Of a stretch of DNA of 44,441 bases, positions 3,544 through 44,441 are shown piece by piece. The notes under the pieces are model-generated. The model was not told the DNA's origin, did no database searches, and was given only the letters and a program-made list of their open reading frames with translations. Positions within the stretch are counted from its first letter, which is position 1, and each line of letters opens with the position of its first letter. Source of the stretch: Mariprofundales bacterium (GTDB lineage Bacteria; Pseudomonadota; Zetaproteobacteria; Mariprofundales; J009); assembly GCA_030950645.1 (NCBI GenBank), contig JAUZRF010000001.1, positions 1 to 44,441 on the forward strand. Direction: 5' to 3'. A program made the position numbers and the translations under genes.

Positions 3544-3664
3544 GTAACTACTCAGCTCACTCCCGGTTTTCCCGATAGCGGCGTTGAAAAATGCTCATTT
3601 ACAGTAGTAAACTCCGCTTTTTCGCCTTGCTATCAGGAAGACTGGGAGTGATCTGAGTAGTTAC
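3544..3664 (-). repeat. Family A palindromic element, short form
   Basis: This is a 121-bp copy starting GTAACTACTCAG and ending CTGAGTAGTTAC, with the central TTTACAGTAGTAAA palindrome. The flanking 8-mers (CTCGCGGG and CAATAGCC) do not match, so no target duplication remains. It lies 305 bases beyond the pgeF stop codon. Confidence 0.85.
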
Positions 3665-3699
3665 CAATAGCCGTAAGCTGTAAGCTAACCAACGAGCGT

Positions 3700-3790
3700 A
3701 AGTAGTCTTGGGCATGTGCGGATGCGGAGTGGGTAATAAGCCGTTCTAAACGGCCTGCCTCATCGTGGCACAAATCCCCTCAAATAAGCC
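3700..3790. repeat. Family B repeat, single arm
   Basis: It is similar over about 80 bases to the reverse complement of 1-83, with roughly 80% identity by eye and one indel. It ends CCCCTCAAATAA, as does 197-207. An internal small hairpin (GCCGTT-CTA-AACGGC) is present. Together with 1-201 it brackets the sensor kinase gene. Confidence 0.6.
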
Positions 3791-3968
3791 GGAATGTAAC
3801 ACCCTACTCGACAGTGCACTCTGGGTCAGTTCTTTGAGCAGTGCTAAATATTAAAGGAGGGGGTGGATCAGTTTTGTGAGTAAAGGCGTGTCAATTTTGG
3901 TGAGCGCCCAAGTCCTAGGGGGAAGATTTGGCTGTCGAGTGTCAATAAATTTGTCCGGTTGACGACAA

Positions 3969-4661
3969 TTAGGATGGCAGGTTGCGGCAGATGAGTGCGA
4001 GTTGCCGCAGCTGGGTCGCATCGCGTCGATGGGAGAAGAAGCGGTTGGATTGGCAGCAGGTACAACCACCAAGTTGTTCGATATGGTCGGCTGAAATTCC
4101 AGAGTTTTGCATCTGATAGCGGTTGATGCTGGCCAAGTCAGCATACCAATTGTGCTCCGTTTGCGTGACACCTACACCATTGGCGCAGGCGGCCAGTTGT
4201 TGGTGGCATTTGGGGCCAATCATGAAGCAGCAGTTGCCGATGGCCGGTCCCATGGCGGCATGGATCGCTTCAGCTGTTGATCCAAGTTTCAGAATGGCGG
4301 TAATCGCCCGCTGAACAATGCCCTCAGCGGTGCCGCGCCAGCCGGCATGGACAGCGGCAATGGTGCCGGTATTGGCATCGGCCAGCAGGATTGGCAGGCA
4401 GTCCGCGGTGCGAATAGCTAGCGTCAGGTTGGTCTGGTTGCTGATCAAAATATCCGCACCGGTGGTGCGGCTGTGTCCATCAACCTGCCAGATGGACGCG
4501 CCATGTGGTTGGTGACACTGCTGGGCTGGGCTGGGAACATGCGCTGAGCGGCATAAGCGGTTTGATGCTGCATGGTCATTTTCATCTGCTACCCCACCAT
4601 CGAGAGCTTCGCTAAATACCGCTTGAATGCCGATGTCGTGAAGCAGGGTCGAGATCAGCAT
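3969..4661 (-). CDS. pgeF: Peptidoglycan editing factor / multicopper polyphenol oxidase family protein (PgeF/YfiH)
   Basis: This 230-residue protein belongs to the YfiH/laccase-domain family. Known roles are removal of misincorporated amino acids in cytoplasmic peptidoglycan precursors (PgeF) and, in some members, purine nucleoside phosphorolysis. Family motifs are present in order: RTADCLPILLAD, AVHAGWRGT, GPAIGNCCF and CTCCQSNRFFSHRRD. They supply the Cys and His residues of the zinc/copper-type active site. The first 60 residues are less conserved than usual. The ATG overlaps the last 7 bases of rluD, so translation is probably coupled. rluD-pgeF is a common neighbour pair. It is the last gene of an apparent rne-rluD-pgeF transcription unit. 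Confidence 0.9.
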   Translation of the reverse strand: MLISTLLHDIGIQAVFSEALDGGVADENDHAASNRLCRSAHVPSPAQQCHQPHGASIWQVDGHSRTTGADILISNQTNLTLAIRTADCLPILLADANTGTIAAVHAGWRGTAEGIVQRAITAILKLGSTAEAIHAAMGPAIGNCCFMIGPKCHQQLAACANGVGVTQTEHNWYADLASINRYQMQNSGISADHIEQLGGCTCCQSNRFFSHRRDATQLRQLALICRNLPS

Positions 4662-5602
4662 TGGCTGTCGATCAGTACCTCATCGAGCGTTGCTAGCACT
4701 GAAGGGCGCGGAGCAACACAGTGGATTTCCGCCTTGGTGATGGGGTGGGTGAATGCCAGCAGTTCGGCATGGAGCGCCTGACCAGGAAGTGCAATAATGG
4801 CTGCTCGTAGCGCCTTAGGAAAACTCTTGCTGGGATTGAATGGTCTGGCGTAGAGCGGATCCCCGAGAATTGGTAGGCCGAGGTGACTTAAATGGACTCG
4901 AATCTGGTGGGTGCGGCCGGTGTGCAGCGTAAGGCGAATCCGGCTCATGTTGAGTCGGTGGCGAAACTCGCAATTTGCCTCGGTGATCGCTTCTTTGCCA
5001 TTGTGGCATACCGCCATTTTTTGCCGATGATGGCGGTGGCGCGCCAGTGGTAACTCAATAGTGTGGCATTGCCATAGCGGACGGCCACGGCACCAGGCAA
5101 CATATTGCCGTTCTAAGTCATGGGTGGAGAAGAGCTCGCTTAAGGCACGCATCGTCGCTTCATCCTTGGCTACGACCAATGCGCCCGAGGTATCTTTATC
5201 GAGCCGGTGAACAATGCCGGGGCGTTGTACGCCATTGATGCCTGGCAGCTCTGGACAGTGGTGGAGCAGAGCATGAACCAGCGTGCCCGTATCATGGCCA
5301 TAGGAGGGGTGCACCACCATGCCTGCCGGTTTGTTGACCACCAAGAGATGGTCATCTTCGAAGAGAATGTCGAGCGGGATCGCCTCGGGAATCAGGGTTA
5401 GCGGGGTGGATGGTGGCAGGGAGAGGGTGAATAGCTCGCCTACTTTGACCTTGCGCGAGGCTTTGAGTCGACCGCTCGCCGAAGTGACCATGCCACTGGT
5501 AAGGAGTTGCTGAATGCGGTTGCGCGATTGTCCGCTAAGCTGCGCTAAGGCATCATCCAGCCGTTTGCCTGCCAACTCGCTGGGAATGGTAAGGTTATCC
5601 AT
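4655..5602 (-). CDS. rluD: 23S rRNA pseudouridine synthase RluD
   Basis: This 315-residue protein is predicted to convert specific uridines in the helix 69 loop of 23S rRNA to pseudouridine. Residues 1-70 form an S4 RNA-binding domain (KRLDDALAQL...SRNRIQQLL). Residues 80-300 form the RsuA/RluA catalytic domain with the catalytic Asp in HRLDKDTSG and the later box LHTGRTHQIRVHL. The start ATG is followed by TIPSELAGKRLDDAL, as in RluD proteins. It lies 64 bases downstream of rne and overlaps pgeF by 7 bases. The closest alternative is the RluC subfamily, but synteny with pgeF and overall length favour RluD. Confidence 0.93.
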   Translation of the reverse strand: MDNLTIPSELAGKRLDDALAQLSGQSRNRIQQLLTSGMVTSASGRLKASRKVKVGELFTLSLPPSTPLTLIPEAIPLDILFEDDHLLVVNKPAGMVVHPSYGHDTGTLVHALLHHCPELPGINGVQRPGIVHRLDKDTSGALVVAKDEATMRALSELFSTHDLERQYVAWCRGRPLWQCHTIELPLARHRHHRQKMAVCHNGKEAITEANCEFRHRLNMSRIRLTLHTGRTHQIRVHLSHLGLPILGDPLYARPFNPSKSFPKALRAAIIALPGQALHAELLAFTHPITKAEIHCVAPRPSVLATLDEVLIDSQC

Positions 5603-5666
5603 GGTGAACGATGGGTTCTGGTTGCGGGATACGCAGGTGTTTGGTTGGTGTCAGGCGCGATATCTG

Positions 5667-7925
5667 CTAATCTGAGGAGGGGGTTTCTGGGGCGGGCTTC
5701 GGCGCGCTTTCGACCTTGTTCTCAGGGCTTGGGTTGCCAGAATCCTTGTGTTCAACTGGTTGTTGCCCTTCGTTATTTTCATTTTCGTTTCTCTCAGCGG
5801 AGACGGGGCGACGACGACGCCTGCGGCGGCGGGGCTTTGCTTCGCCTTCGGTAGCTTCTTCCTTGTTTTCCGTTGGCGTTGGAGGGTTGGCGCTGGCGGG
5901 CCGTTTTTGTGACGCGGGGGAATCATTCGGTGTATCGTTCGTGGTCGCATTGGTGCCGGACTCCACATTCTCTTCGCTCTTGGCAGGCTTGCGTCTCCTC
6001 CTTCGGCGTTTCTTTGCTGGTGCCTCTGCGTCGGTGGAGGTTTCGGTGGTCGATGGCGCATTTTGCACCGGGCGCGGTGGCCGAGGTTTGTTGGGCTGAT
6101 CACTTCTGGGGCGTCGGTTGCGGTTGCGTCCACCGCGTTCGCCACGATTACGGTTGTTGCTGCTGCGCGGCGGTGCCTCTGGCTCAGGTTCTTTTTCTGG
6201 CTCGCTCTTGCTGACGCTGTCTCCGAACAGTGCAGCAGCCAGGCGCTTAAGTAGCCCCGGCTTTTGTGTGCCGGCAGTGGCGGTTGATGTTGTCGATTGT
6301 TTCGCCGGCGTCTCTTCAGCGGGGGGTTGTGGTATGCCAACGACTGGTTTTAATGGGCGTAGCTTTTTCCCTGGCCGAGGCGCTTTGGCCACTTTCGAGG
6401 TGTCTTCAAGGATCTCGTGGCGTTTTTGATTGTCATCGCTCCACAGGCGGTCGATGCGGTAGTGGGGGATATTCAACTCAGGGCGAATCTGTAGGCTGAC
6501 CTGTACCTCGTAGTTTTCCTCAATGCGGGCGATCCAGTCGCGTTTGTTGTTCATCAGGTATTCGCCGGTTGCGGAGGGGAGCTGGACTGCCAACTCGGGT
6601 TTTTTCCCCGCTTCAGCCCAATCCTCGATACGGGTGAGAATATGCAGTGCCATCGATTCCGTGGTTAGCACCGTGCCGCGACCCTTGCAGCGCGGGCAGA
6701 CTTGGCTGGTGGTTTCGCGCACGCTGGGGTGGAGCCGTTGGCGTGACATCTCCATCAAGCCAAAGCGGCTGATGCGGGTGATCTGGATGCGCGCCTTGTC
6801 CATGTCGCACGCTTGGCGCAGTGCGTCTTCAACCTGCTGGCCATGCTTGCGCGAGGTCATGTCGATGAAGTCGATCACAATCAGGCCACCGATATCCCGG
6901 ATGCGCAGTTGGCGGGCGATCTCTTCTGCTGCTTCCAGATTGGTCGCCAGCGCGGTCTCGTCGATATGCTTACCCTTGGTGGCGCGCGAGGAGTTGATAT
7001 CGATCGATGTCAGTGCCTCGGTGGGGTCAAACACCAGCGCGCCACCGGAAGGGAGACGGATCTCACGCTCATGGATCTCTTCGCATTGGTCTTCGATGCC
7101 GTATTGGCGAAACAGCGGCTTTTTGCCGCGATAGAGTTTGACTAGCTTCTCCTTGCCAGGGATTACCGCATGGATGAACTCCTTGGTACGGGTATAGACC
7201 TCGTGATTATCAACCCAAATCTCGGCAATATCGTCGGTGAAGTGGTCACGAATGGCGCGGGTGGCTAGGTCGCCTTCCATATAGATTAGCGCTGGTGCAG
7301 GGGCGGAGTTTCCCTTGATGCGGATCTCCTCCCAGAGGCGAGTAAGGTAGGAGAAGTCGCGTTGCAGTGCTTCCAGCTTCTGATCTCGGCCTGCGGTGCG
7401 GACAATGAGTCCGACATCCTCGGGCACATTGAGTTGGGCGATGATCGCTTTGAGTGCGCGCCGCTCATCGTCGGAGAGTTTGCGTGATATACCGCCGCGC
7501 ATGGTGTTGGGGCTTAACACTAGATAACGACCCGCCAGTGAGATAAAGGTGGTGAGTGCGGCCCCCTTGTTGCCGCGCTCCTCTTTCACCACTTGCACCA
7601 AGATTTGTTGTTTGCCTTCGAGCACATCCTGGATGTTTACCCGGCGTGGGTTTTGCTCTTTATCTACGCCGCCTTTCCAGTAGTCGGGATGGATCTCGTT
7701 GATCGGCAGGAAGCCTTGGCGGCCGGAGCCGTACTCGACGAAGCAGGCTTGTAGGCTAGCCTCGATTTTGGTGATGGTTCCACGGTAGATGTTGCCCTTG
7801 GTAATGACTTTTTGGGCAGACTCGATATCGAGTTCGTGCATGTAATCATTGAGGGTAATGGCGACGCGGCGCTCTTCTTCGTGCGATGCGTTGATGAGCA
7901 TGCGCTTGGTGACAGTTGTAGTCAT
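5667..7925 (-). CDS. rne: Ribonuclease E
   Basis: This 752-residue endoribonuclease is the core enzyme of mRNA decay and of rRNA/tRNA processing. The N-terminal catalytic half is complete: KRMLINASHEEE at the start, an S1 domain around residues 40-130, and the DNase I-like region with FDPTEALTSIDINSSRATKG and LIVIDFIDM, which carry the two metal-binding Asp residues. The zinc-link motif CPRCKGRG follows. After about residue 520 the sequence is low-complexity and rich in Pro, Glu and Arg, with runs of 6 to 8 Arg, like the disordered scaffold region of RNase E. It is shorter than the 1061-residue E. coli enzyme. The gene is divergent from an rluC-like gene, as rne and rluC are in enterobacteria. 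Confidence 0.96.
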   Translation of the reverse strand: MTTTVTKRMLINASHEEERRVAITLNDYMHELDIESAQKVITKGNIYRGTITKIEASLQACFVEYGSGRQGFLPINEIHPDYWKGGVDKEQNPRRVNIQDVLEGKQQILVQVVKEERGNKGAALTTFISLAGRYLVLSPNTMRGGISRKLSDDERRALKAIIAQLNVPEDVGLIVRTAGRDQKLEALQRDFSYLTRLWEEIRIKGNSAPAPALIYMEGDLATRAIRDHFTDDIAEIWVDNHEVYTRTKEFIHAVIPGKEKLVKLYRGKKPLFRQYGIEDQCEEIHEREIRLPSGGALVFDPTEALTSIDINSSRATKGKHIDETALATNLEAAEEIARQLRIRDIGGLIVIDFIDMTSRKHGQQVEDALRQACDMDKARIQITRISRFGLMEMSRQRLHPSVRETTSQVCPRCKGRGTVLTTESMALHILTRIEDWAEAGKKPELAVQLPSATGEYLMNNKRDWIARIEENYEVQVSLQIRPELNIPHYRIDRLWSDDNQKRHEILEDTSKVAKAPRPGKKLRPLKPVVGIPQPPAEETPAKQSTTSTATAGTQKPGLLKRLAAALFGDSVSKSEPEKEPEPEAPPRSSNNRNRGERGGRNRNRRPRSDQPNKPRPPRPVQNAPSTTETSTDAEAPAKKRRRRRRKPAKSEENVESGTNATTNDTPNDSPASQKRPASANPPTPTENKEEATEGEAKPRRRRRRRRPVSAERNENENNEGQQPVEHKDSGNPSPENKVESAPKPAPETPSSD

Positions 7926-8398
7926 AGGATCGTACCTTTTGGCTACCTCAGCAGTGCGGAGCGATCGTAAGGCATCCCCCTCTGTGCAGCACCATCAATT
8001 CATAGGATTGGTTGGGGCATGCAGGGTTGTCGGTCGATCTATTGTTGCCGTATCTTTCAGGAAGGAGGTCTCGATAGCGAGGGTCGTCTGATAGGTGCGG
8101 GAAAATCCAAACATTGCGTCCGTAGCAATAAATTTACTGCACTATTTTTGATGGTGCTCTAACGGACTGGAGCGGGATACCTTTGACAGGGTGGAAATCA
8201 CCGGCCACGGTTGGTTGCCTACGCAAATATAGGAGCCTAGGAATAAGATTTTCGCCGAATCGTATTTAAGATCGGGCGGGAAGAGGCTCAACCACTATTT
8301 GCTAGTGATGATCAAACACGCTGAAAAGGGTTGCCGACTCGAAGACCGGAGACCTGCAAAAGATGCAGCGTTGAAATACTATCCATAACGGGGGTGAT
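7926..8398. other. 473-base divergent intergenic region between rne and the rluC-like gene
   Basis: No gene is seen. By position it must hold the promoters and 5' leaders of both divergent genes. The long rne side would suit a long rne leader, as known for rne autoregulation in enterobacteria. A TTGACA at 8183-8188 lacks a convincing -10 box at the right distance on the plus strand. I could not assign promoters with confidence. Confidence 0.4.
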
Positions 8399-9376
8399 TT
8401 GGCAAATGTGGAACCACTAGCGCGTTGGCTGGTTGATAAGAATGAGGATGGCAGCCGGTTAGATCGCGCCTTGATTCGTCGTTGCGGTGAGGGACGCAAA
8501 GGATTGATCATGCGTCTCATCCGCAAGGGGAATGTGCGGGTTGATGGTAAGCGCGCACAGCCATCGACCCGCTTGGTGGCGGGCAATGAAATCTATCTTC
8601 CCGCTTCGTTGCGCGAGCCTGAGGAGGCAAAAACCATGGGGTCAGGTCTTGTTTGGCGCAGAGGGCAGGATAAAAAATGCGCGAAACAAGCCCTGACCCC
8701 GTACATGACTATTTATGAGGATGCGCAGTTGCTGGTGGTGGATAAGCCCGCTGGTGCGGTGGTGCACGGCGGTAGTGGTTATACCTCGGGTTTGATTGAA
8801 CAGATCAAGCTGGTACGGGGCCTGCCTGATCTTCGTTTGGCACATCGGCTGGATCGGGATACCAGTGGTTGTCTGTTGTTGGTTAAAGAGTTGGCAGCTC
8901 TCCGGGCGGTGGCTGCAAGCTTTCGGGACCATGAGGCGGAGAAAAGTTACTTCGCCTGGGTGATGGGGTGGATGGAAGACCAAGCTGGACGGATGCGCAG
9001 CCACTTGTCCAAAGGCGTCGTTCGTGGCGGCGAGCGCATGGTGGTGGATGCAGGGGATGGCAAGGAGGCGGTGACCGATTTTCAGCTGGTGTTGCGCACC
9101 GAAATTGCGGGGCTGCGGCTATCGTTAGTAGCACTGATGCCGCACCATGGCCGTACCCATCAGTTGCGGGTGCAACTGGCACAGGAGGGGCACGCGATCG
9201 CTGGCGATGGCAAGTATGGCACGGCTGATGATTTGCGTGCGTTTCGCGCGATCGGGGGCAAGGGGATGGCGCTTCATGCCTGGCGTCTACGCTTGCGGCA
9301 CCCTGATACAGGGCTGTTGTTGGATTTTCGTGCGCCGTGGCCTAAGCGTTGGCGCTGGGTGCATCAAGAGGCTTAG
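8399..9376 (+). CDS. rluC: RluC-type 23S rRNA pseudouridine synthase with an in-frame palindromic insertion
   Basis: This 325-residue protein has an N-terminal S4 domain (residues 18-75, SRLDRALIRRCGEGRKGLI) and an RluA-family catalytic domain with the catalytic Asp in LAHRLDRDTSG and the box MPHHGRTHQLRVQL. RluC acts on three positions of 23S rRNA. The start is a TTG preceded by GGGGGTG. A GTG three codons later is possible. Between the two domains, residues about 81-101 are encoded by a 63-bp inverted repeat (8638-8700) that keeps the frame open and looks like a late insertion into the linker. Its divergence from rne supports the RluC assignment. The subfamily is less certain than the enzyme class. 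Confidence 0.85.
   Translation: MANVEPLARWLVDKNEDGSRLDRALIRRCGEGRKGLIMRLIRKGNVRVDGKRAQPSTRLVAGNEIYLPASLREPEEAKTMGSGLVWRRGQDKKCAKQALTPYMTIYEDAQLLVVDKPAGAVVHGGSGYTSGLIEQIKLVRGLPDLRLAHRLDRDTSGCLLLVKELAALRAVAASFRDHEAEKSYFAWVMGWMEDQAGRMRSHLSKGVVRGGERMVVDAGDGKEAVTDFQLVLRTEIAGLRLSLVALMPHHGRTHQLRVQLAQEGHAIAGDGKYGTADDLRAFRAIGGKGMALHAWRLRLRHPDTGLLLDFRAPWPKRWRWVHQEA
8638..8700. repeat. In-frame REP-like palindrome inside the rluC-like gene
   Basis: The left arm GGGGTCAGGTCTTGTTT (8638-8654) and right arm AAACAAGCCCTGACCCC (8684-8700) are inverted repeats with one mismatch over 17 bases, separated by 29 bases. The total of 63 bases is a multiple of three and has no in-frame stop. No second copy was noticed in the window. 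Confidence 0.8.
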
Positions 9377-9386
9377 CTCGGTGTGG

Positions 9387-9456
9387 GTAACTGCTTAGCT
9401 CACTTCGGGTTTTTCGCCTTGTTATCAGAAAAATCCGAAGTGAGTTGGGTCAGTTG
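9387..9456. repeat. Family A element, internally deleted
   Basis: It begins GTAACTGCTTAGCTCACTTC and keeps only the outer parts of both arms plus the TTTTTCGCCTTGTTATCAG segment. The right end is degraded (CAGTTG instead of AGTTAC). It lies between the convergent rluC-like gene and sthA and overlaps the last codons of sthA, including its stop. Confidence 0.7.
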
Positions 9457-10866
9457 TTGTAGACAGTCGAGTGCTGCCATACGGTAGCATTCGGCCAAGG
9501 TTGGGTAATTGAACACATTGCGCACCAGATCGTCGACCACGCCATGGTAGGAGATGACCAACTGACCGATGTGGATTAGCTCGCTGGCCGATTCGCCGAC
9601 GATGTGCACCCCTAGCAGGCAACGGGTGGCGACATCGACATTGAGCTTGACCATGCCGTTGTAGTCGCCGATGATTTTTCCGCGCGCACTGTCGTTAAAA
9701 CGGCCATAGCCGACCACATAATCGACATGATCTTCCTGCAACTCATGCTCAGTGCGCCCGATTGAGGAGACCTCGGGAATGGTGTAGATGGCAAAGGGCA
9801 GAGCTGGTGGCGCGTGGCGTGACTCCTCTGCCATCTCCCCGCAGGCATGGGCGGCGGCAATGCGTCCCTGCTCTTGTGCCGCTGAGGCTAGGGCGGGATT
9901 GCCGATCAAGTCGCCCACTGCGTAGATGTGCGGCACATTGCTGCGAAAGCCGCCATCGACTGCAATCCAGCCGTGGGCGTCGATGGCCACTCCAGCACGA
10001 TCCAACGCCAGATGATCCATGTTGGGCTTGCGACCCATGGCATAGAGCAGGCAGTCGCCGCGTAGTTCGCTGCCATCATCCAATGTTGCCGTCACCTCGC
10101 CATCCTGGCGCCGGATTGCAGTGACCGATTGCTGCATGGAAAATGTGATCCCCATGGCGATCATGGAATCGGTCAAGGCGCGGACAATATCACTGCTTAG
10201 CCAGGAAAGAATTTGCGCGTGGCTGTCGATGATTGTTACCGAAACCCCAAGTGCAGCATAGATCGAGGCGAACTCGCAGGCGATAACGCCACCGCCCACC
10301 ACCAGTAGCCGTTCCGGCAAGCGGGTCATGTGCAGAATCGAGGTTGAGTCGTGCACCCGCTCCCGATCCAACGGTACCCACTCCGGACGCCTAGGGCGTG
10401 AACCGGTGGCCAGGATGATCGCATCCGCCGTCAATTGGCGCTCTTCGTCTCTGGGGCTGCGCACGATTAGGGTGTGGGGATCGGCAAACCGCGCCTCGCC
10501 GGGGATCAGCGTCACCCCGCTACGCATCAGCCGATTGAGTAGCACCGACTCTTGCTGGTTGATGACATCATCTTTTTTGTGGATCGCATCGATTAGCAGG
10601 CGGTGCTGCGACACCAGGTCGCGCCCTAAGGATGCGCGCATCCCTGAGCGGGTAGCTACTGCGGCGGCGTAAGCCGTCTCGCGCAGCGCCTTGCTAGGGA
10701 TGGTGCCGGTTTGCAGACCCACTCCACCCAGGCGGGGCTTGCGTTCGACCATGGCGACGCGCTTGCCCGCCTCGGCGGCATGAATCGCTGCCTGCTGACC
10801 AGCAGGGCCGGATCCAATCACCACCAGATCGAACGGGGTACGGGCCATCCGCAACGGCCCACTCAT
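9400..10866 (-). CDS. sthA: Soluble pyridine nucleotide transhydrogenase (SthA-type flavoprotein)
   Basis: This 488-residue FAD flavoprotein belongs to the lipoamide dehydrogenase superfamily. SthA re-equilibrates NADPH and NAD+. The FAD-binding GSGPAGQQAA lies near residue 18, the NAD(P)-binding GGGVIACEFA in the middle, and the C-terminal dimerisation domain carries FNYPTLAECYRMAALDC. The region that holds the redox disulfide in lipoamide dehydrogenases reads GGVGLQTGTIPSKALRE and has no Cys, which rules out a thiol-dependent reductase; SthA proteins also lack the pair. The ATG shares ATGA with the stop of the upstream hybrid kinase. An internal ATG six codons later is also possible. The last 17 or so residues and the stop come from a degraded family A repeat (9387-9456). 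Confidence 0.85.
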   Translation of the reverse strand: MSGPLRMARTPFDLVVIGSGPAGQQAAIHAAEAGKRVAMVERKPRLGGVGLQTGTIPSKALRETAYAAAVATRSGMRASLGRDLVSQHRLLIDAIHKKDDVINQQESVLLNRLMRSGVTLIPGEARFADPHTLIVRSPRDEERQLTADAIILATGSRPRRPEWVPLDRERVHDSTSILHMTRLPERLLVVGGGVIACEFASIYAALGVSVTIIDSHAQILSWLSSDIVRALTDSMIAMGITFSMQQSVTAIRRQDGEVTATLDDGSELRGDCLLYAMGRKPNMDHLALDRAGVAIDAHGWIAVDGGFRSNVPHIYAVGDLIGNPALASAAQEQGRIAAAHACGEMAEESRHAPPALPFAIYTIPEVSSIGRTEHELQEDHVDYVVGYGRFNDSARGKIIGDYNGMVKLNVDVATRCLLGVHIVGESASELIHIGQLVISYHGVVDDLVRNVFNYPTLAECYRMAALDCLQQLTQLTSDFSDNKAKNPK

Positions 10867-12827: not shown

Positions 12828-12872
12828 CTTGCCGATGCTACAAAACGGAGGTGAACAGGCAACTTGAATATC

Positions 12873-17926: not shown

Positions 17927-18079
17927 GTAACTACTTATCACCCTACCCAAAAATGGCTGTAACTGCTCAGATTGCTTCTGGTTTTTCCGATAGCAAGGCG
18001 AAAAAGCGGAGTTTACTACTGTAAATGAGCATTTTTCAACGCCGCTATCGGAAAAACCAGAAGTGAGCTGAGTAGTTAC
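17927..18079 (+). repeat. Family A element, long form, with near-perfect target duplication
   Basis: This 153-bp copy starts GTAACTACTTATCACCC, has the internal repeat GTAACTGCTCAGATTGC at 17959, and ends CTGAGTAGTTAC. Flanking 8-mers are GGTAGGCG (17919-17926) and AGTAGGCG (18080-18087), 7 of 8 identical, as expected for an old 8-bp target site duplication. It sits between ampD and hemC. Confidence 0.9.
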
Positions 18080-30882: not shown

Positions 30883-31035
30883 GTAACTACTCAGCTCACT
30901 CCCGGTTTTCCCGATAGCGGCGTTGAAAAATGCTCATTTACAGTAGTAAACGCCGCTTTTTCGCCTTACTATCAGGAAAACCGGAAGCAATCTGAGCAGT
31001 TACAGCCATTTTCTGGTGGGGTGCTGAGTAGTTAC
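30883..31035 (-). repeat. Family A element, long form
   Basis: This 153-bp copy starts GTAACTACTCAGCTCACTCC at 30883, with inner end GAGCAGTTAC at 31003 and outer end CTGAGTAGTTAC at 31035. The spacer is of type A (AGCCATTTTCTGG). No target duplication is visible. It begins 15 bases after the cyclase stop and ends 30 bases before motA. Confidence 0.9.
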
Positions 31036-33726: not shown

Positions 33727-33811
33727 GTAACTACGCAGCACCCCTTGAAAATATCCCGTAACGGCTCAGGTTGCTTCCGGTTTTTCAACGCCGCTATCGT
33801 GGAAAATCAGG
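33727..33811 (+). repeat. Family A element, long form with internal deletion, overlapping the efp stop
   Basis: It starts GTAACTACGCAGCACCCC, has type B spacer TTGAAAATATCCC, inner repeat GTAACGGCTCAGGTTGC at 33757, then jumps to TTTTTCAACGCCGCTATCG and fades out at about 33811. The efp stop codon (33807-33809) lies inside the degraded right arm. Confidence 0.75.
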
Positions 33812-34394: not shown

Positions 34395-34547
34395 ATAACG
34401 ACTCAGCTCACTTCCGATTTTCCTGATAGCGGCGTTGAAAAATGCTCATTTACAGTAGTAAACTCCGCTTTTTCGCCTTGCTATCAGAAAAGTCAGAAGC
34501 AATCTGAGCAGTTACAACTATTTTTGGGTAGGGTGCTGAGTAGTTAC
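34395..34547 (-). repeat. Family A element, long form (first of a tandem pair)
   Basis: This copy starts ATAACGACTCAGCTCACTTC, with inner end GAGCAGTTAC at 34515, type A spacer (AACTATTTTTGGGTAGGG) and outer end CTGAGTAGTTAC at 34547. Flanks TAAAACAT (34387-34394) and CAAAAAAT (34548-34555) agree at 6 of 8 positions. It is next to the efp start. Confidence 0.85.
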
Positions 34548-34555
34548 CAAAAAAT

Positions 34556-34698
34556 GTAACTACTCAGTTCACTTCTGCTTTTCCCGATAGCTGCGTTGAA
34601 AAACACGCATTTACAGTAGTAAACTTCGCTTTTTCACCTTGCTATCAGAAGCAATCTGGGCAGCTACGGGATATTTTCAAGGGGTGCTGAGTAGTTAC
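34556..34698 (-). repeat. Family A element, long form with a small deletion (second of a tandem pair)
   Basis: It starts GTAACTACTCAGTTCACTTC, lacks about 8 bases of the right arm (TATCAGAAGCAATCTGG), has inner end GGGCAGCTAC at 34667, type B spacer (GGGATATTTTCAAGG) and outer end CTGAGTAGTTAC at 34698. Flanks begin CAAAAA on both sides (34548 and 34699). It is separated from the first copy by 8 bases. Confidence 0.85.
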
Positions 34699-34758
34699 CA
34701 AAAATAGTCTCTGGAGCGTCATGCAAGCGGCGAACCGTCTCCAGCACAAGGAAAACAT

Positions 34759-35625: not shown

Positions 35626-35672
35626 GTTTCAACGCCGCTATCGGGAAAACCAGAAGTGAGCTGAGTAGTTAC
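35626..35672 (+). repeat. Family A element, right half only
   Basis: It contains TTTCAACGCCGCTATCGGG onward to CTGAGTAGTTAC; the left half is missing. It fills nearly the whole gap between the convergent unknown gene and rpoH. Confidence 0.8.
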
Positions 35673-35680
35673 CTCCCCGA

Positions 35681-36514: not shown

Positions 36515-36562
36515 AGCTTTTTCGTACCTCCGAATCTGGTGATGAGTGTTGTTATCTTGTAG

Positions 36563-36576
36563 CGGCTCGAAAGCCG
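36563..36576 (-). promoter_or_regulatory. Small hairpin in the rpoH 5' leader
   Basis: On the rpoH strand CGGCT-TTCG-AGCCG forms a 5-bp stem with a four-base loop, downstream of the predicted promoter and about 50 bases before the start codon. It could influence leader folding; it is too far from GGAGG to mask it alone. Confidence 0.35.
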
Positions 36577-36590
36577 ATGCGCGCTATGCT

Positions 36591-36620
36591 ATGCTAGCAT
36601 GCCGAGTGGCATTGGGTCAA
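36591..36620 (-). promoter_or_regulatory. Predicted sigma-70-type promoter of rpoH
   Basis: On the minus strand the -35 box TTGACC (36615-36620) and -10 box TAGCAT (36591-36596) are separated by 18 bases. The -35 box overlaps the stop codon of the upstream Tim44-like gene. The start codon is about 75 bases downstream. Confidence 0.5.
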
Positions 36621-37492: not shown

Positions 37493-37606
37493 TGTTTTAT
37501 CTCCTGATATCGTCGAAACGCCATAGCTGTTTTGGACGGAGTCGCGATTTAAAATGATGGCGCATTGTCATAAGTTAAGGTAAAAAGTCTATGAAAGCAG
37601 GCTGAT

Positions 37607-37784
37607 CATTACTCAGCTCACTCCCGGCTTTCCCGATAGCGGCGTTAAAAAACGCCCATTTACAGGTAACTGCTCAGATTGCTTCCGGTTTTCCTGATAG
37701 CGGCGTTGAAAAATGCTCATTTACAGTAGTAAACTCCGCTTTTTCGCCTTGCTATCAGAAAAACCGGAAGCAATCTGAGCAGTT
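37607..37784. repeat. Family A composite: left half copy plus full copy, flanked by an 11-bp direct repeat
   Basis: A partial arm (TACTCAGCTCACTCCC to CCCATTTACAG, 37611-37666) runs straight into a full copy starting GTAACTGCTCAGATTGC at 37667 and ending GAGCAGTTA. In this copy both outer arms are of the same type, making a longer near-perfect palindrome. AAGCAGGCTGA occurs on both sides (37596-37606 and 37785-37795), consistent with a target duplication. It supplies the C-terminus of the MurU-like gene. Confidence 0.85.
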
Positions 37785-38453
37785 AAGCAGGCTGAAAAGA
37801 TCGTGCGGGCGGCCGATGTCGTGCCAGTTGCCGTGGTGGTGTATGCCATACAGCTGATCGGACTCCATCTGTTGGTGCATCAAGTCGGTGAGCGGAAAAC
37901 AGGGCTCGTGCTGGTGCCGCAACAGTGCATCCGGCCACAAGGATACGCCTGAAAAGGTCAGGGTATCCATCTCTGGAGGGCGCACCTTGCCATGCACTAA
38001 AGCAAAGTCCCCTTGTGGATGATGCGGCGGATTGGCTATCAGCGCCAACGCCGCTGCAGAGGGGTGATCGGATACACGCTGCCACAATGCGGTGAGATCG
38101 ATATCCGTCACCACATCGGCATTGAGTACGAACAGGTTGGCTCCTTCCGGGAGGAACTGCTGCGCCTGACACACCCCACCACCGGAATCGCGTAATTCAT
38201 ACTCCACGCTATAGCGGATGGAGATGCCAAAGCGACGACCATCGCCCAAGGCTTGCCGAATCTGCTCGCCGTGGGCATGCAGGTTAATGGCGACATGACG
38301 CACGCCATGGCGAATGAGGTGACGCAGGGTGTGTACAATGGCGGGCTCTCCGGCCACCGACATCAGCGCCTTGGGGCGATCACGGGTGAGCCATTTCAGT
38401 CGCGTGCCCAATCCTGCAGCCAAAATCACCGCGCGATCCGGGCGCATCAGCAT
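37755..38453 (-). CDS. MurU-like nucleotidyltransferase
   Basis: This sugar-phosphate nucleotidyltransferase of about 232 residues is closest to MurU, which makes UDP-MurNAc from MurNAc-1-phosphate in a peptidoglycan recycling route. The nucleotide-binding signature is VILAAGLGTRLKWLTRDRPKALMSVAGEP, split as AAGLGTRL and RPKALM; SGGGVCQAQQFL and FVLNADVVTDIDLTAL carry the substrate-binding and metal-binding residues. I chose the ATG at 38453, just before the conserved domain; no clear ribosome binding site helps. The last 10 residues (NCSDCFRFF and stop) are encoded by a family A repeat. The usual partner kinase AmgK is not adjacent, so the sugar specificity is inferred only. Confidence 0.8.
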   Translation of the reverse strand: MLMRPDRAVILAAGLGTRLKWLTRDRPKALMSVAGEPAIVHTLRHLIRHGVRHVAINLHAHGEQIRQALGDGRRFGISIRYSVEYELRDSGGGVCQAQQFLPEGANLFVLNADVVTDIDLTALWQRVSDHPSAAALALIANPPHHPQGDFALVHGKVRPPEMDTLTFSGVSLWPDALLRHQHEPCFPLTDLMHQQMESDQLYGIHHHGNWHDIGRPHDLFSLLNCSDCFRFF

Positions 38454-38487
38454 GGTTTTGTGGCTGATTCCCGCTCTGCCGCCGTGA

Positions 38488-39396
38488 TCAATCCTTTCCC
38501 AATAGGTGCAGTAGCGTCCCCATCTGCTCCTCAGCAGCCGCCCTGCCACGGGCAATCTCATCCCTGGGGTGGGAAAAATCATCCCACTGCACATCCCCTA
38601 CCAGCGGTTCGATCAGTATCTCCGTATGCTCCTTATCATACCGGCGAAGGTAGTAGGATTTCACCAAGGATGCCCAGTCCAGCATGCTAAGGAGATGGGT
38701 TGGCGTGGCTCCACACGAGGGCTTTGCCCCCACATTTACTGACACCACGCACTGGCTATTGCTGGCCCGTTGCCGTGCCTCCAATGAGGGGATCTCCGAT
38801 GCTAGGCCGCCATCAACATAGCGTTTCCCATCCACTTCTACCGGTGCGAAAATGCCGGGGATCGCCATGCTGGCAGCTACACTGAGAACCAGATCCCCTT
38901 GCGTAAACAGGGTGCAGTCGCCGCAAGGGAAATCGACCGCAGTACACGAAAATGGAATTTGTAGTTCGGAGAAATCGCGGGTTTTGCAGAGTTTCTCGGC
39001 AACGGTAATGAGTAGCTCTGCGTCCATGAGCGATATATCGCTCGCTGCGCGGGCATAGAGCATGGTTTGGCGCGCGAGATTTGCCCAGTGGTTGAGGAAC
39101 GATTCTCCAGCGTCTTGTTGTTGCAGTTTCGGTAGTTGCAGCTCGGTCATGGTGTCGGAGTGGAGGAAATCCAGCGCCTGAGCTTTGACTGCCGTGATGT
39201 CAGGATGGTGTGCATACATTGCCCCGAATAGTGCGCCGATGCTGACACCAATGATGGCATCGGGCCGCAACTGATGCGCCTCCAACGCCTCAAGTACGCC
39301 GAGGTGTGCCAGGCCTCGTCCACCACCACCGCCCAGTGCCAGCACAAAGCCGTCGTATCGGCTTGGTAGTAGCCGGCTAAACCAATTGGTATTCAT
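38488..39396 (-). CDS. Patatin-like phospholipase (RssA/NTE family)
   Basis: This patatin-fold serine hydrolase of about 302 residues has the Ser-Asp dyad: oxyanion loop LGGGGGRGLAHLG, nucleophile elbow GVSIGALFG, and the Asp in VDGGLASEIP. Related bacterial proteins are RssA-like putative esterases acting on lipids; the substrate is unknown. There is no signal peptide. ATG 39396 has AAGGAGGAG (39402-39410) just upstream and shares ATGA with the glnD stop, so the two genes are probably translated together. The frame starts 16 codons further up inside glnD without support. Confidence 0.88.
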   Translation of the reverse strand: MNTNWFSRLLPSRYDGFVLALGGGGGRGLAHLGVLEALEAHQLRPDAIIGVSIGALFGAMYAHHPDITAVKAQALDFLHSDTMTELQLPKLQQQDAGESFLNHWANLARQTMLYARAASDISLMDAELLITVAEKLCKTRDFSELQIPFSCTAVDFPCGDCTLFTQGDLVLSVAASMAIPGIFAPVEVDGKRYVDGGLASEIPSLEARQRASNSQCVVSVNVGAKPSCGATPTHLLSMLDWASLVKSYYLRRYDKEHTEILIEPLVGDVQWDDFSHPRDEIARGRAAAEEQMGTLLHLLGKD

Positions 39397-42041
39397 GAAT
39401 TCTCCTCCTTCGGCAGTGTGATGACTTGATAGAAATCCGAGCACAATTGATCAATAAGTGATGGGTCGATGCTAGCTGGACGCGATGGGCCATCCCCTTC
39501 GGGCTCAAGGAAAAACACATCCACGATCTGCTCTCCGAAGGTGGAAATTTGGGCGGAACGGGTATGCAAATGGTGACGATTGATCACCGCAGCCAAATCG
39601 GCCAAGATGCCGGGACGGGATGCTGCGGTTACCTCAATCACGATCATCCGTGCAGAGGCCTCTGGCAATAGTCGAACGCGCGGTGTTACTTGGCGCATCA
39701 GCACATTGATGGTGAAATGCGGTGCGGCGCGTAGTTGGGGCGGTTGGTTGCTCTGCAGCACCTGTTCAATGCGCTGGCACAGACGGTCGAGATCGGATTG
39801 CGCAGTCAATGGCTCACCATCAATGGTCTGGAGATAGAACAGGTCGAGTACCCGACCATGGTGTAGATTGACTGCTTGCGCTGACATAATTGAGGTGTTG
39901 GAGCTATGAATGACACTGGTTAGCGCGGCAAAGAGTCCGCTACGCTCGCGGCTATGTACCATGACCCGTGTGCCGCCACCTTGAATATCCACCTCGGCAC
40001 AGACGCTATCGGTTGCGGGATGTAGGGTGAGGAAATCGACCATGCGCGCCAATATTTTCGTTGGCAGTTGGCGCTGTGCGCCGGCAGGTATGCATGCGAG
40101 TGATGCCAATGTATCGCGTTGATCGCTGTTTTCCACCAAGGCCAATATTGCTTGTCGCCGCTGCGCAAGACGCGCCGCGAGCGCGGCATCGTTGCTGAGT
40201 TCATCCAGTTGATCGCCCAGCAATGCCTGCTCTGCTGCCCGGTAGAGTTCGCCCAGCAGTGAGCCTTTCCATGCGTTCCATACCTCTGGCCCCACGGCAG
40301 CGATATCGGCCACGGTTAGGCAGTAGAGATAATCTAATCGTGCGCGCGTCTCAATCTTACGGGCAAAATCCGTGATCACTGCGCGATCCGACAGGTCGTA
40401 ACGCTGAGAGACCATTGCCATGGTTAGGTGCTGGGAGACTAGCCATGGTACCAGATCGCAGGCACTCTCATCCAGCCCTGCACGGTGACAGAATTTGCGG
40501 GCCAGCTTCTCCCCCTCTATCGAATGGTCTCCGGGGATCCCTTTGGCAATGTCATGGAAAATCAGTGCGAGGTAGAGCAGCTCTGGTCGTGCTAACCGTG
40601 CCGATATCTCCGATGCCAATGGGGAGCGCAGGGTGCGCTGCCTATGGATAAAGTTTCGCGCCTCTCCCACGGCTCGGATGGTGTGCTCATCCACGGTGTA
40701 GGCGTGGTAGCGATTGAACTGACCTAGCCCCACCACGCGACGAAAATCTGGAATGAATCGCCCCAACACCCCGGTATCATTCATCTCTTTGAGTGCCCAT
40801 GCCACATTGCGTCGCTGCCGGAGAATATCCATAAAGCATTGGTATGCCTTAGGATCTCGGCGCACATCCTCATCGATTAGCAAAGCATCGGCACGAATGC
40901 GGCGCAGGGTGGTTGAGGTCAGCTTACGGTGTCCCTCCTGCGCAACATGGAACACCTTGAGCAGTCGTAGTGGCTCCTCGCGGAACACTGCGGCGTGGGC
41001 AATGCCGACCCGTTCGCCCTCTTCCACTAGGCCATGGCCAATCGGCTTGGTGCGGACAAAAAGGTGTTTGTGCTGCAACTCCTCAAAATGCATCGTGATC
41101 ATGCCGCAGAGCCGCACCACCCGTCCGGCATGGCGGAAGTAATCCTTCATGAACCGTTCCACCGCCGGACGCTCGCCACCGCCATAGCCCATCGCATCGG
41201 CTAGGTATGCTTGCTGTTCGAAGCTGAGGCGGTCACTCGCCCGCTGTTGGTTGAGGTGTAGCCCAACCCGGCAGCGCCAGAGGTAATCCTCGGCTGCCAG
41301 CAGGTGGTAGCGTTCACGCACCGACAGGGTGCCGGAGGTCATCAGGCTGCCGCCACCCGCCGTGCCATACCACGCCTTGGCCAACCAGAATACCGTTTGA
41401 ATATCACGCAGGCTGCCGCCACCCTCTTTGATGTCGGGCTCCATCAAAAACGCAGTCTTTCCGGTGCGATCATGTCGCAGATGCATCTCTTCGAGTTTGG
41501 CAATGACAAATGCCGCCCGTCGTCGTTGGAAAAACTTGTGGATGTTCTCCTGCAATGCTTCAAACAGGGTGCCATGGCCAAACACCAAACGCGCCTCCAT
41601 CGCTGCGGTGGCGGTACTCCAATCCTCGCTCATCGCCCGCACACAGTCGCGCACGCTACGCACAGCATAGCCTACCTTGAGATTGAGATCCCATAGCGCG
41701 TACAGAAATGGCTGAATCTTCTCCTGCTCCGCTTGGCCAGTACTGGATGGAATCAGAAACCAGAGATCGAGGTCGGAGTGGGGTGCCAACTCACCGCGGC
41801 CAAAGCCGCCTACTGCGATCAGGTCGACCTGATCCAATAGCTCTGGTGCCAACTGGCGCCACAGCTTGCATAGTAGGACATCCATCCGATCAGCCAGCGC
41901 CTGTGCCATCTCCTGACCGGTAGCGCCAACGCCGAACATTTCGGCAATGTAGTTTCGGTTGGCGATCAATCGCTGTTGCAGAGCGGCGTTGTCGATGGTG
42001 CTGGGAACGCTGGAATGATCATCAGCATCAGAATGGGTCAT
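39393..42041 (-). CDS. glnD: Bifunctional uridylyltransferase / uridylyl-removing enzyme GlnD
   Basis: This 882-residue nitrogen sensor uridylylates PII proteins when glutamine is low and removes UMP when it is high. The order is a nucleotidyltransferase domain with GGFGRGELAPHSDLDLWFL (about 75-95), a helical region with the conserved GGGSLRDIQTVFWL, an HD domain with LALIFHDIAKGIPGDHSIEG (about 490-520), and two C-terminal ACT domains (about 695-770 and 805-880) that bind glutamine. Length is normal for the family (E. coli 890). No strong ribosome binding site precedes the ATG. No PII or amt gene is in the window. Confidence 0.97.
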   Translation of the reverse strand: MTHSDADDHSSVPSTIDNAALQQRLIANRNYIAEMFGVGATGQEMAQALADRMDVLLCKLWRQLAPELLDQVDLIAVGGFGRGELAPHSDLDLWFLIPSSTGQAEQEKIQPFLYALWDLNLKVGYAVRSVRDCVRAMSEDWSTATAAMEARLVFGHGTLFEALQENIHKFFQRRRAAFVIAKLEEMHLRHDRTGKTAFLMEPDIKEGGGSLRDIQTVFWLAKAWYGTAGGGSLMTSGTLSVRERYHLLAAEDYLWRCRVGLHLNQQRASDRLSFEQQAYLADAMGYGGGERPAVERFMKDYFRHAGRVVRLCGMITMHFEELQHKHLFVRTKPIGHGLVEEGERVGIAHAAVFREEPLRLLKVFHVAQEGHRKLTSTTLRRIRADALLIDEDVRRDPKAYQCFMDILRQRRNVAWALKEMNDTGVLGRFIPDFRRVVGLGQFNRYHAYTVDEHTIRAVGEARNFIHRQRTLRSPLASEISARLARPELLYLALIFHDIAKGIPGDHSIEGEKLARKFCHRAGLDESACDLVPWLVSQHLTMAMVSQRYDLSDRAVITDFARKIETRARLDYLYCLTVADIAAVGPEVWNAWKGSLLGELYRAAEQALLGDQLDELSNDAALAARLAQRRQAILALVENSDQRDTLASLACIPAGAQRQLPTKILARMVDFLTLHPATDSVCAEVDIQGGGTRVMVHSRERSGLFAALTSVIHSSNTSIMSAQAVNLHHGRVLDLFYLQTIDGEPLTAQSDLDRLCQRIEQVLQSNQPPQLRAAPHFTINVLMRQVTPRVRLLPEASARMIVIEVTAASRPGILADLAAVINRHHLHTRSAQISTFGEQIVDVFFLEPEGDGPSRPASIDPSLIDQLCSDFYQVITLPKEENS

Positions 42042-42120
42042 CGGGCAAGCTTAGCGCGTAAGTTGGGTGCAATCCATTGGGGGAACAGGCGAAGGAGGGG
42101 GATAATTCCAAATGCGGCGA

Positions 42121-42273
42121 GTAACTACTCAGCTCACTTTCGGTTTTCCTGATCGCGGCGTTGAAAAATGCGCATTGACAGTAGTAAACTTAAGCTTTTC
42201 CGCCTTGCTATCAGTAAAACCGGAAGCGATCTGAGCAGTTACGGGATGTTTTCAATGGGTGCTGAGTAGTTAC
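42121..42273 (-). repeat. Family A element, long form, carrying the stop codon of the methyltransferase gene
   Basis: It starts GTAACTACTCAGCTCACTTT, with inner end GAGCAGTTAC at 42242, type B spacer (GGGATGTTTTCAATGG) and outer end CTGAGTAGTTAC at 42273. The TAA of the downstream-reading methyltransferase (42270-42272) is part of the terminal GTAAC. Flanking 8-mers do not match well. Confidence 0.88.
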
Positions 42274-43007
42274 GATGGCGGGAGAGGTGGGGGGCTGCTA
42301 CTACAGATGAAGATCTGTTCGTGGTCGGCGATCATGTTCCATGGTGGAATATGGTCTCCAACTGTGATCTCCTCATGGATGGTCAGGTGTCGTGAGATCA
42401 TGCGGCGCATTGCCGCTAGCGTAAAACGGTAGGGGCGAACATGGTTGTAGAATGCGGGAAAGATGCGAGTGGCAGTGTAGTGGAGTCGCGCCATGGGTGA
42501 TGATGCGGTTTTGGCACAGAGGATCACTGTTGCGCCATCACGGAGCAGACGACCCATTTCGTGGAGCGCGATCTCCGGATTGTAGACAAAACTTAAGGCG
42601 TTAATGCAGATGATGAGGTCGATGGAGTGGTCTGTGAGCGGGATTTTCTCAGCTTCGGAGGTGAGGTAGCGCCCTTTGGGAATGGTGCCTGGGTAGGTGC
42701 GGCGGAGGTCTTCAAGTAGTGGATCAACAAAGGTTTTATGGCCTTTTTCAATCCATTGGCTAAAGCAGGTGGGGCCGGAGCCAATCTCTAATATTTCACT
42801 TTTCTCATCGAGTTGCTGTAGGTAGGGGTCACATAGGGGCAATAGGCGTTGTTGCAGACGGTGCATTTCGCATTCAAGCATCGCTTTCCCTTGCCAACGC
42901 GCCAGTTCATGGCGTTGACAACGAAGCCACTGTTGCTTGGTGATAGCGCGGTGGTGGGCAGAGCATCTGCACTGGCTGTGCTCAGTGGACACCTTAGGGG
43001 GCACCAT
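42270..43007 (-). CDS. Class I SAM-dependent methyltransferase
   Basis: This protein of about 245 residues has a Rossmann-type SAM-binding domain: motif I ILEIGSGPTCFSQWIEKG, acidic residue in FVDPLLEDL, IPLTDHSIDLIICINALSFV (motif with Asp) and EMGRLLRDGATVILCAK. It resembles UbiE/BioC-like small-molecule or lipid methyltransferases; the substrate is unknown. The frame is open far upstream through lpxL, but the first sensible start is ATG 43005-43007, overlapping the lpxL end by 14 bases; a GTG directly after the lpxL stop is the alternative. Its stop codon TAA lies in the terminal repeat of a family A element. A Trm112-like gene starts the same operon. Confidence 0.82.
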   Translation of the reverse strand: MVPPKVSTEHSQCRCSAHHRAITKQQWLRCQRHELARWQGKAMLECEMHRLQQRLLPLCDPYLQQLDEKSEILEIGSGPTCFSQWIEKGHKTFVDPLLEDLRRTYPGTIPKGRYLTSEAEKIPLTDHSIDLIICINALSFVYNPEIALHEMGRLLRDGATVILCAKTASSPMARLHYTATRIFPAFYNHVRPYRFTLAAMRRMISRHLTIHEEITVGDHIPPWNMIADHEQIFICSSSPPPLPPS

Positions 43008-43905
43008 GCACGGCATCCGCAAGTATTTGGTTATGTTCAAGGATAAACCAGCGTCGATGCAGCCATAGCCACGACTCTGGTCGGGCGTGGATCTCTGATG
43101 CAAAGCTGTCGTGAATCGCCTCGGTGATCTGGTATTGATCCAATTTGCGATCGGGAGCCTGTTTTGGCAATGCGATTGGCCAAAAACGGAGTTGGAAACA
43201 GAAGCTGCGGCGCACACGGTGGATGGAGACCCCGAAAATGGGCACCTGATGGCGCCGGGCAATGGCCGCAGGCAGGGTGGTAGAGTTGGCGAGATGGCCA
43301 AGAAATGGCACCGGCACCCCTTGGCTCATGTGTTGATCAATCATGATGGCGATGGCGCGACCATCCGAGAGATCGCGTTTAAGCCAGCGGACGCCGTTCC
43401 AACGCGAGCGCATAAGCGATCCAAAGCGTTGTCGGCAGCTGAGTAGAAAAGACTCCAGCGGCAGTTGCTTGAGTGGTCGGTAGATGACCGATGATGGGTA
43501 GCCCAGCAGTGAGACCATCAGTCCGCCCAGCTCCCAGTTGCAGTAGTGAGAGGCTACCAATACCACGCCGTTGCCTGCATCCATTGCCTGACGGAAGGGC
43601 GCCTCACCCTCTACTTTTACCCGTGACATTAAAAAACGGCGTGAGCGTAGAAAAACATGGGGGAACTCGAAGGTGCTGCGTCCGAGTTCGGCAAAGCTCT
43701 CGCGTGCGGTCTGGCTGCGCCAAGCGCGGCCACGATCGGGATAGATGCGTGCCAGATTGCCCACGGTGATGCGGCGGTGGCGCTGCATCAGGTGAAATGC
43801 CATTCGGCCAATGGCTGCTCCCAGCCCGCCGGCAATGCGTACCGGCAGCAGCCGGATTGTCCAAAACAGCGTTTGGATGGCAATCGCCTGGATGCGATCC
43901 TTCAT
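42994..43905 (-). CDS. lpxL: Lipid A biosynthesis acyltransferase (LpxL/HtrB family)
   Basis: This 303-residue inner-membrane acyltransferase adds a secondary acyl chain to lipid A. The N-terminal part has a membrane-associated helix (LFWTIRLLPVRIAGGLGAAIG). The HX4(D/E) catalytic box is ASHYCNWELGGL, and IDQHMSQGVPVPFLG and TTLPAAIARR are typical of the LpxL/LpxM group. The C-terminal ESWLWLHRRW is a family hallmark. The ATG is preceded by GGAAAACGG. Whether it transfers a first or second chain cannot be told. It lies 51 bases after a Trm112-like gene and overlaps the methyltransferase. Confidence 0.92.
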   Translation of the reverse strand: MKDRIQAIAIQTLFWTIRLLPVRIAGGLGAAIGRMAFHLMQRHRRITVGNLARIYPDRGRAWRSQTARESFAELGRSTFEFPHVFLRSRRFLMSRVKVEGEAPFRQAMDAGNGVVLVASHYCNWELGGLMVSLLGYPSSVIYRPLKQLPLESFLLSCRQRFGSLMRSRWNGVRWLKRDLSDGRAIAIMIDQHMSQGVPVPFLGHLANSTTLPAAIARRHQVPIFGVSIHRVRRSFCFQLRFWPIALPKQAPDRKLDQYQITEAIHDSFASEIHARPESWLWLHRRWFILEHNQILADAVHGAP

Positions 43906-43956
43906 CCGTTTTCCAACACGATTACTGGTTCGATATTCGGGGAAAGCTGCTGCAAT

Positions 43957-44127
43957 CTATTCGCTAATCGGCTCTGCCTGATCAATCAGCATCACCGGGA
44001 TATCATCGCGGATCGGGTAGCTGAGTTGGCAGGTGTCGCATACCAATCCGTCCTTGGCGGTGTTGTAGTGTACCGGCTGCTTGCATTTTGGGCAGGCTAG
44101 GATTTTGAGTAGCTCTTGATCGATCAT
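43957..44127 (-). CDS. Trm112 family zinc-ribbon protein (YcaR-like)
   Basis: This 56-residue protein starts MIDQELLKILACPKCKQPV and has two CxxC pairs (Cys12, Cys15, Cys30, Cys33), with LSYPIRDDIPVMLID after the second, as in the bacterial Trm112/UPF0434 family. The ATG (44125-44127) has GGAGG (44136-44140) 8 bases upstream, so the gene is well supported despite its size. In eukaryotes and archaea Trm112 is an activating partner of methyltransferases; in E. coli YcaR sits among lipid A genes. Here both contexts coincide, with lpxL and a methyltransferase downstream. Confidence 0.9.
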   Translation of the reverse strand: MIDQELLKILACPKCKQPVHYNTAKDGLVCDTCQLSYPIRDDIPVMLIDQAEPISE

Positions 44128-44171
44128 AGGGGAGGCCTCCGAAGGGGGATATTTATTATAGTATAAAACAG

Positions 44172-44293
44172 GTAACTGCTCAGATTGCTTCTGCGTTTTC
44201 CTGATAGCAAGGCGAAAAAGCGGAGTTTACTACTGTAAATGCGCATTTTTCAACGCCGCTATCAGGAAAACCGAGAGTGAGCTGAGTAGTTAC
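44172..44293 (+). repeat. Family A element, short form, with perfect 8-bp target duplication
   Basis: This 122-bp copy starts GTAACTGCTCAGATTGC and ends CTGAGTAGTTAC. It is flanked on both sides by TAAAACAG (44164-44171 and 44294-44301), a perfect 8-bp direct repeat. This is the clearest evidence in the window that the element moves by transposition. It lies upstream of the Trm112-like gene. Confidence 0.93.
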
Positions 44294-44304
44294 TAAAACA
44301 GATC

Positions 44305-44441
44305 GTAACTACTCAGCACCCTACCAAAAAATGGCTGTAACTGCTCAGATTGCTTCCGGTTTTCCTGATAGCAAGGCGAAAAAGCGGAGTTTACTACTGT
44401 AAATGAGCATTTTTCAACGCCGCTATCAGGAAAACCGGGAG
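44305..44441 (+). repeat. Family A element, long form, cut by the window end
   Basis: It starts GTAACTACTCAGCACCC at 44305, type A spacer (TACCAAAAAATGGCT), inner repeat GTAACTGCTCAGATTGC at 44337, and continues through CAGGAAAACCGGGAG to the last base. Only the right terminus is missing. It follows the previous copy after 11 bases. Confidence 0.88.

Follow-up and report, generated by a model that had tools for sequence, protein, structure and literature searches.

A MITE family of a Mariprofundales genome with the ends and 8-bp target duplications of single-gene IS66 elements

Repeated elements in the 44-kb window

The window, by which we mean the whole stretch of 44,441 nucleotides analysed, is the entire contig C1 of a Mariprofundales genome assembly (1.99 Mb, 134 contigs, 91% complete) and carries many copies of a short palindromic element. 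The 12-bp end of this element, GTAACTACTCAG, is present at 26 sites in the window when up to two mismatches are allowed, against 0.9 expected, a number matched by none of 100 shuffles. An earlier note on this DNA had counted 12 full or partial copies, and by alignment we find the same 12 places, occupied by nine complete or near-complete elements and three fragments, as follows.

3544-3664, plus strand: element of 121 bp, both ends perfect, without a remaining target duplication
9387-9470, minus strand: degenerate fragment at the 3' end of ORF 9400-10866, placed by alignment
17927-18079, minus strand: element of 153 bp, 8-bp duplication matching at 7 of 8 positions (CGCCTACT/CGCCTACC)
30883-31035, plus strand: element of 153 bp, outer right end 31024-31035, inner right end 30992-31003, without a remaining duplication
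33727-33800, minus strand: chimeric fragment retaining the 31-bp tail type (CAAGGGGTGCTGCGTAGTTAC), placed by alignment
34395-34547, plus strand: element of 153 bp, flanks TAAAACAT/CAAAAAAT matching at 6 of 8 positions
34556-34698, plus strand: element of 143 bp, internally shortened, directly adjoining the 34395-34547 copy, flanks CAAAAAAT/CAAAAATA matching at 6 of 8 positions
35627-35672, minus strand: left-end fragment of 46 bp, placed by alignment
37605-37786, plus strand: compound element of 182 bp (half a copy and a whole copy), perfect 8-bp duplication GCAGGCTG
42121-42273, plus strand: element of 153 bp, without a remaining duplication
44172-44293, minus strand: short-form element of 122 bp, right end equal to the inner end GTAACTGCTCAG, perfect 8-bp duplication TAAAACAG
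44305-44441, minus strand: long-form element cut by the contig end, placed by alignment

The start of the 122-bp copy was set at 44172 because its 8-bp duplication lies there. This duplication and that of the compound element are both exact; the second copy of the end 32 bases inside the 153-bp form, the inner arms and the central palindrome TTTACAGTAGTAAA, described in the earlier note, are present as well. The 182-bp compound, with its perfect duplication, moved as a single unit. With 12-bp inverted ends, a palindromic interior, no genes and a length of mostly 121-155 bp, the elements have the structure and size (<300 bp) of MITEs.

Abundance and gene context

The exact 12-bp end occurs 581 times in the 1.99-Mb genome and its reversed control does not occur at all. 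A 426-kb sample contains 145 exact ends and 75 complete elements, from which the genome is estimated, by end count, to hold about 300 complete elements, or about 2% of its length. Most copies differ from each other, at a median of 11 of 153 positions, so that a large part of the amplification may date far back; there are also pairs of nearly identical copies whose flanks differ. The last base of the window falls inside the copy at 44305-44441, and several other contigs have a copy a few hundred bases from an end; the family thus probably fragments the assembly at its copies.

Counting ORFs of 110 residues or more, 85% of the sampled DNA is in ORFs, and random placement would put 87% of the copies inside them; 57 of the 62 scorable copies lie between ORFs. 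In tandem gene pairs many copies begin a few bases from the stop codon of the upstream gene, and there are several ORFs whose end falls within an element. In the window, the minus-strand ORF 37755-38594 terminates within the compound element. The orientation of the copies relative to tandem genes is unbiased (21 opposite, 18 same), and a scan of one copy showed neither a sigma-70 promoter-like nor an intrinsic-terminator-like site.

Target duplications and the two mobile lengths

For the statistics of duplications we used 0.45 Mb of DNA (the window, 20 stretches of up to 20 kb and further loci) chosen for containing copies, in which all end pairs 100-200 bp apart were tested for flanking direct repeats of 4-12 bp. 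Exact 8-bp duplications flank 32 of the 144 end pairs, against 0.07% when the flanks of different copies were paired, and in the same end pairs the lengths of 4-7 and 9-12 bp gave almost none and no signal. Allowing one mismatch, 49 of the 88 oriented copies of this sample have 8-bp direct repeats (0.35% in the control), which is the excess around copies that the earlier note had proposed to look for genome-wide.

The two lengths, 121 and 153 bp, appear to result from a duplicated right end, whose two copies lie 31-32 bp from each other. Where a left end is accompanied by a 153-type right end (66 cases), the duplication, with at most one mismatch, is found at the outer end in 40 and at the inner end in none; where only a 121-type right end is present (22 copies), nine have the duplication there. 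Since each length has duplications of its own, both forms are mobile units and the inner copy works as an end; the short form would have been made by its use. The spacing of the doubled end is also 31-32 bp in genomes G052, G036 and G065, and it is 21 bp in G001 and G041; a helical-spacing rule looked suggestive and was dropped because single copies have spacings of 24 and 35 bp. A search of the sampled DNA for a longer autonomous element with these ends and an exact duplication gave only the 182-bp compound.

IS66 remnants in the same genome

A search with the IS66 DDE family gave one match in the genome and a search with its protein added two pieces; each of the three, on contigs C51, C115 and C69, is a remnant of the C-terminal part of TnpC. 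Searches with the Pfam family, with the remnant and with a ten-sequence TnpC alignment gave no intact TnpC gene in this 91%-complete assembly, which is probably broken at repeats. The right ends of the remnants are CATAGGATCAGGGGTGCTGAGTAGTTAC in C51, GAGTGGTTAC in C115 and CATAGGATCAGGGGGGCTGAGTAGTTAC in C69, the last two differing from C51 by one base each in the last 18. The long element finishes at its outer right end with ..GGGTGCTGAGTAGTTAC, or ..AAGGGGTGCTGAGTAGTTAC in one subtype, and has 17-19 bp in common with the right end of the C51 remnant. The match to the resident IS66 is one of the right side, its left end not having been found.

The C51 remnant is split by a 153-bp copy, reading AGAAAAAAT, the copy and then GAAAAAATAACATC, with GAAAAAAT on either side, and the C115 remnant is uninterrupted at the same place (AGAAAAAATAACATC). 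C115 and C51 are an empty and an occupied site with an 8-bp duplication, located in paralogous IS66 remnants. The remnant in C69 starts at the same point, beside an element of opposite orientation.

IS66 elements of other bacteria

Relatives of the TnpC remnant were taken from one-per-species genomes, and IS66 elements from many phyla among them proved to be bounded by GTAACTACTCAG or by the close variants GTAACTATTCAG and GTAACTACTAAG. Perfect 8-bp duplications flank 11 of the 25 scorable elements with paired ends, a 26th being cut at a contig end. Most of these elements are 1.4-1.8 kb long (range about 1.4-2.0 kb) and have one TnpC ORF of ~480-530 residues, a size that leaves no space for tnpA and tnpB, so that the partner would be of the single-gene type, which we take to be the ISBst12 subgroup of IS66. 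A second copy of the end within ~75 bp was found in none of 22 full-length IS66 elements, and the doubled right end is therefore particular to the MITE. The end that the MITE has in common with these other IS66 elements amounts to only ~12 bp. In another Pseudomonadota genome (L035:4404-5069), the same ends and a perfect 8-bp duplication enclose an IS66 element whose tnpC is preceded by an additional ORF, 221 residues long.

The earlier note had suggested searching for IS66 elements with matching ends, and both this genome, in the form of remnants, and other bacteria have them. That note had regarded the repeats as non-autonomous derivatives mobilised by an IS66-type transposase and had named tnpA, tnpB and tnpC as the genes of the element to look for: the ends and the 8-bp duplications bear this out, the interior has no recognised likeness to IS66, and the partner indicated is one with a single TnpC ORF instead.

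Distribution in the order and the conserved hairpin

The 153-bp consensus matches 40 of 78 genomes of the order Mariprofundales, including both other members of the family, and a recognisable IS66 DDE domain is present in only 10 of the 61 genomes searched, so that persistence without a resident partner, or loss of the partner in draft assemblies, must be assumed. With a covariance model made from 23 copies, taken from 18 genomes, at least 150 copies are recovered in the genome of the window. The interior forms a long hairpin that is stable (z-score -7 to -13) and whose pairing is maintained: of the 31 pairs of the alignment 14 show two-sided changes, and the score for covariation is 0.27, compared with 0.14 for shuffled alignments and 0.04-0.10 for slid controls. 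The terminal pair, T-A or C-G (GTAACTAT vs GTAACTAC), switches at both ends together, as would be expected if one transposase reads both ends. Rfam covariance models gave no match in the window at the gathering threshold and none at E<=0.1 in 20 related loci. The element family was not found in plasmid records, nor its exact left-end pattern in viral contigs, where the core pattern and a swapped-core control both had zero matches.

The hairpin core outside the family

On the reverse strand the core of the hairpin consists of GCGGAG, a 5-bp stem, a 4-nt loop, the returning stem and TGAGC, with a conserved GGAG/TGA internal loop. The covariance model has weaker matches in 21 sampled genomes outside the order, with rough E-values of ~1e-4 to 1e-9 per genome, and in 370 kb of unrelated bacterial DNA it has no match at E<=1. 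The matches outside the order have in common TGCTCA-stem-CTCCGC and GCGTT/CCTTG; their arms are different and self-complementary, and they are devoid of the GTAAC ends. Aligned by fitting to the model, they show two-sided changes at 30 of the 31 pairs. In other families of Pseudomonadota (L231-L260, ~1501-1625), several hairpins with the same core apparently lie right after stop codons, the preceding genes being dnaK-, gyrB- and secA-like as judged by eye from the neighbouring letters.

Comparison of the 50-nt core with plasmid records by blastn gave matches in Halomonas, Pseudomonas veronii, Haliscomenobacter (Bacteroidota) and Staphylococcus aureus. In the S. aureus record NZ_CP077935.1 (L288:1461-1573), 33 nt of the core are found at 97% identity in three places, and the hairpin sits in the 16S-23S rRNA spacer according to Rfam. 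Plasmid pHALHY01 of Haliscomenobacter hydrossis (L289:1440-1600) has a near-perfect palindrome of ~160 nt with the same core, and the palindromes at L243, L252 and L259 are MITE-like, with the same hairpin core and ends of the type GGCCTGTT/GGCCCTGTT, unlike the GTAAC ends. E. coli (L286:1430-1620) has a long hairpin of related core between hemE and nfi, most of this stretch being present in 301 of 5426 genomes, and it looks strain-variable; the 50-nt core itself has no match in E. coli genomes. A RAYT/REP origin of the core was considered and rejected, no core hairpin having been found at the Y1 loci of eight genomes, within flanks of at most 1.5 kb.

It may be that the MITE took up a common hairpin; alternatively, a host factor may have its site in the core. 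We hold tentatively, and with more doubt than conviction, a reading in which the core is a nucleic-acid module common to several phyla and carried by otherwise unrelated elements; it would be the site of a common enzyme or host factor and would have been acquired by the MITE. Its carriers would be the IS66-type MITEs, palindromes with other ends (Halomonas-like and Bacteroidota), the hairpins after genes in Pseudomonadota and the rRNA spacer of S. aureus.

Mechanism of mobilisation and its alternatives

From the comparison of sequences we consider it very probable that the repeats are a MITE family mobilised by the transposase of an IS66 element with a single TnpC ORF (ISBst12-like), TnpC being the enzyme that would act in trans. 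TnpC would recognise the 12-bp end on both sides, insert the element elsewhere and duplicate 8 bp of the target; with use of the outer right end the 153-bp form would move, and with use of the inner one the 121-bp form. Surviving copies lie chiefly between genes, many of them in contact with a stop codon. A matching single-ORF IS66 partner would have the ends GTAACTACTCAG...GGGGTGCTGAGTAGTTAC.

A different matter is the origin of the elements, which does not touch the mechanism: they could be internal-deletion derivatives of the resident IS66 that inherited its ends and the flanking interior. The tail GGGTGCTGAGTAGTTAC shared with the resident remnants speaks for such a descent, as does the left end GTAACTATTCAGCTCCC of G039, a relative in the order, which resembles the left end GTAACTAYTCAGCTCAC of the element; past 12-19 bp, however, the interior holds no recognised IS66 sequence, and its core is also found in hairpins with other ends, so that we judge this origin rather unlikely.

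Duplications of 8 bp are known from several IS families, an end of 12 bp is a short one and the assembly yielded no intact IS66, all of which would allow a MITE moved by a transposase of another family. We give this very little credit, given that this very end sequence is the one of single-ORF IS66 elements from many phyla and that the resident remnants match the outer right end over 17-19 bp.

Least credible of all is that the repeats are static REP/BIME-like or terminator-like hairpins, immobile and kept for a function in mRNA: the stability of the hairpin, its covariation across genomes, the closeness of copies to gene ends and the recurrence of the core downstream of genes in other families are in its favour, but the defined ends, the 8-bp duplications, the empty and occupied pair and the near-identical copies with different flanks demand transposition, the copies have no orientation bias, the scanned copy has no terminator-like site, and the Y1/RAYT-type loci examined have no core hairpin beside them. 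The 8-bp duplications refute it as a full explanation, and the hairpin may have a secondary role of this kind.

Relation to known systems and significance

The MITE resembles the IS66 elements of the single-TnpC type (ISBst12 subgroup) in the terminal GTAACTACTCAG or close variants, in the 8-bp duplications and in the near-same right end of the remnants in its genome, and it differs from them by its length of mostly 121-155 bp, its gene-free hairpin interior and its doubled right end. The Correia elements of Neisseria, ERIC and QMITE2 of Coxiella are likewise short, intergenic, palindromic, high-copy MITEs, with other ends and another inferred transposase type; ERIC reaches up to 711 copies and Correia >120 (PMC10969869), and QMITE2 has large and small versions and overlaps the 3' ends of genes (PMC5896051). 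MITECca01 of Cardinium, of IS982 type, has 169 copies that make up 3.5% of the chromosome and is inferred to be moved by the resident parental IS (PMC9769881). It is thus also a MITE with a presumed IS as its mobiliser; unlike the family described here, which is IS66-type and order-wide, it belongs to IS982, has intact parental copies and is restricted to a single strain.

IS66 goes unmentioned in a review of prokaryotic MITEs from 2024 (PMC10969869). In a search of literature mostly outside the subscription journals and outside ISfinder, from which we claim no priority, no paper was found that connects miniature inverted repeats with Zetaproteobacteria or with ISBst12, and the papers examined that name both IS66 and MITE treat them apart. 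The object, a MITE, is of an ordinary kind; the sequence evidence that it transposes in the manner of IS66 is unusually complete, and the family seems to be undescribed.

As a case of an IS66-type MITE family it is a clear one: copies have target duplications, an empty site within the genome serves as control, and the doubled end accounts for the two mobile lengths, in a bacterial group from which the literature searched reports no such family. The ~300 copies estimated in 2 Mb probably supply stop codons and hairpins at the ends of genes, and the common hairpin core raises a testable question, that of a structural motif found repeatedly in elements unrelated to each other and also in an rRNA spacer.
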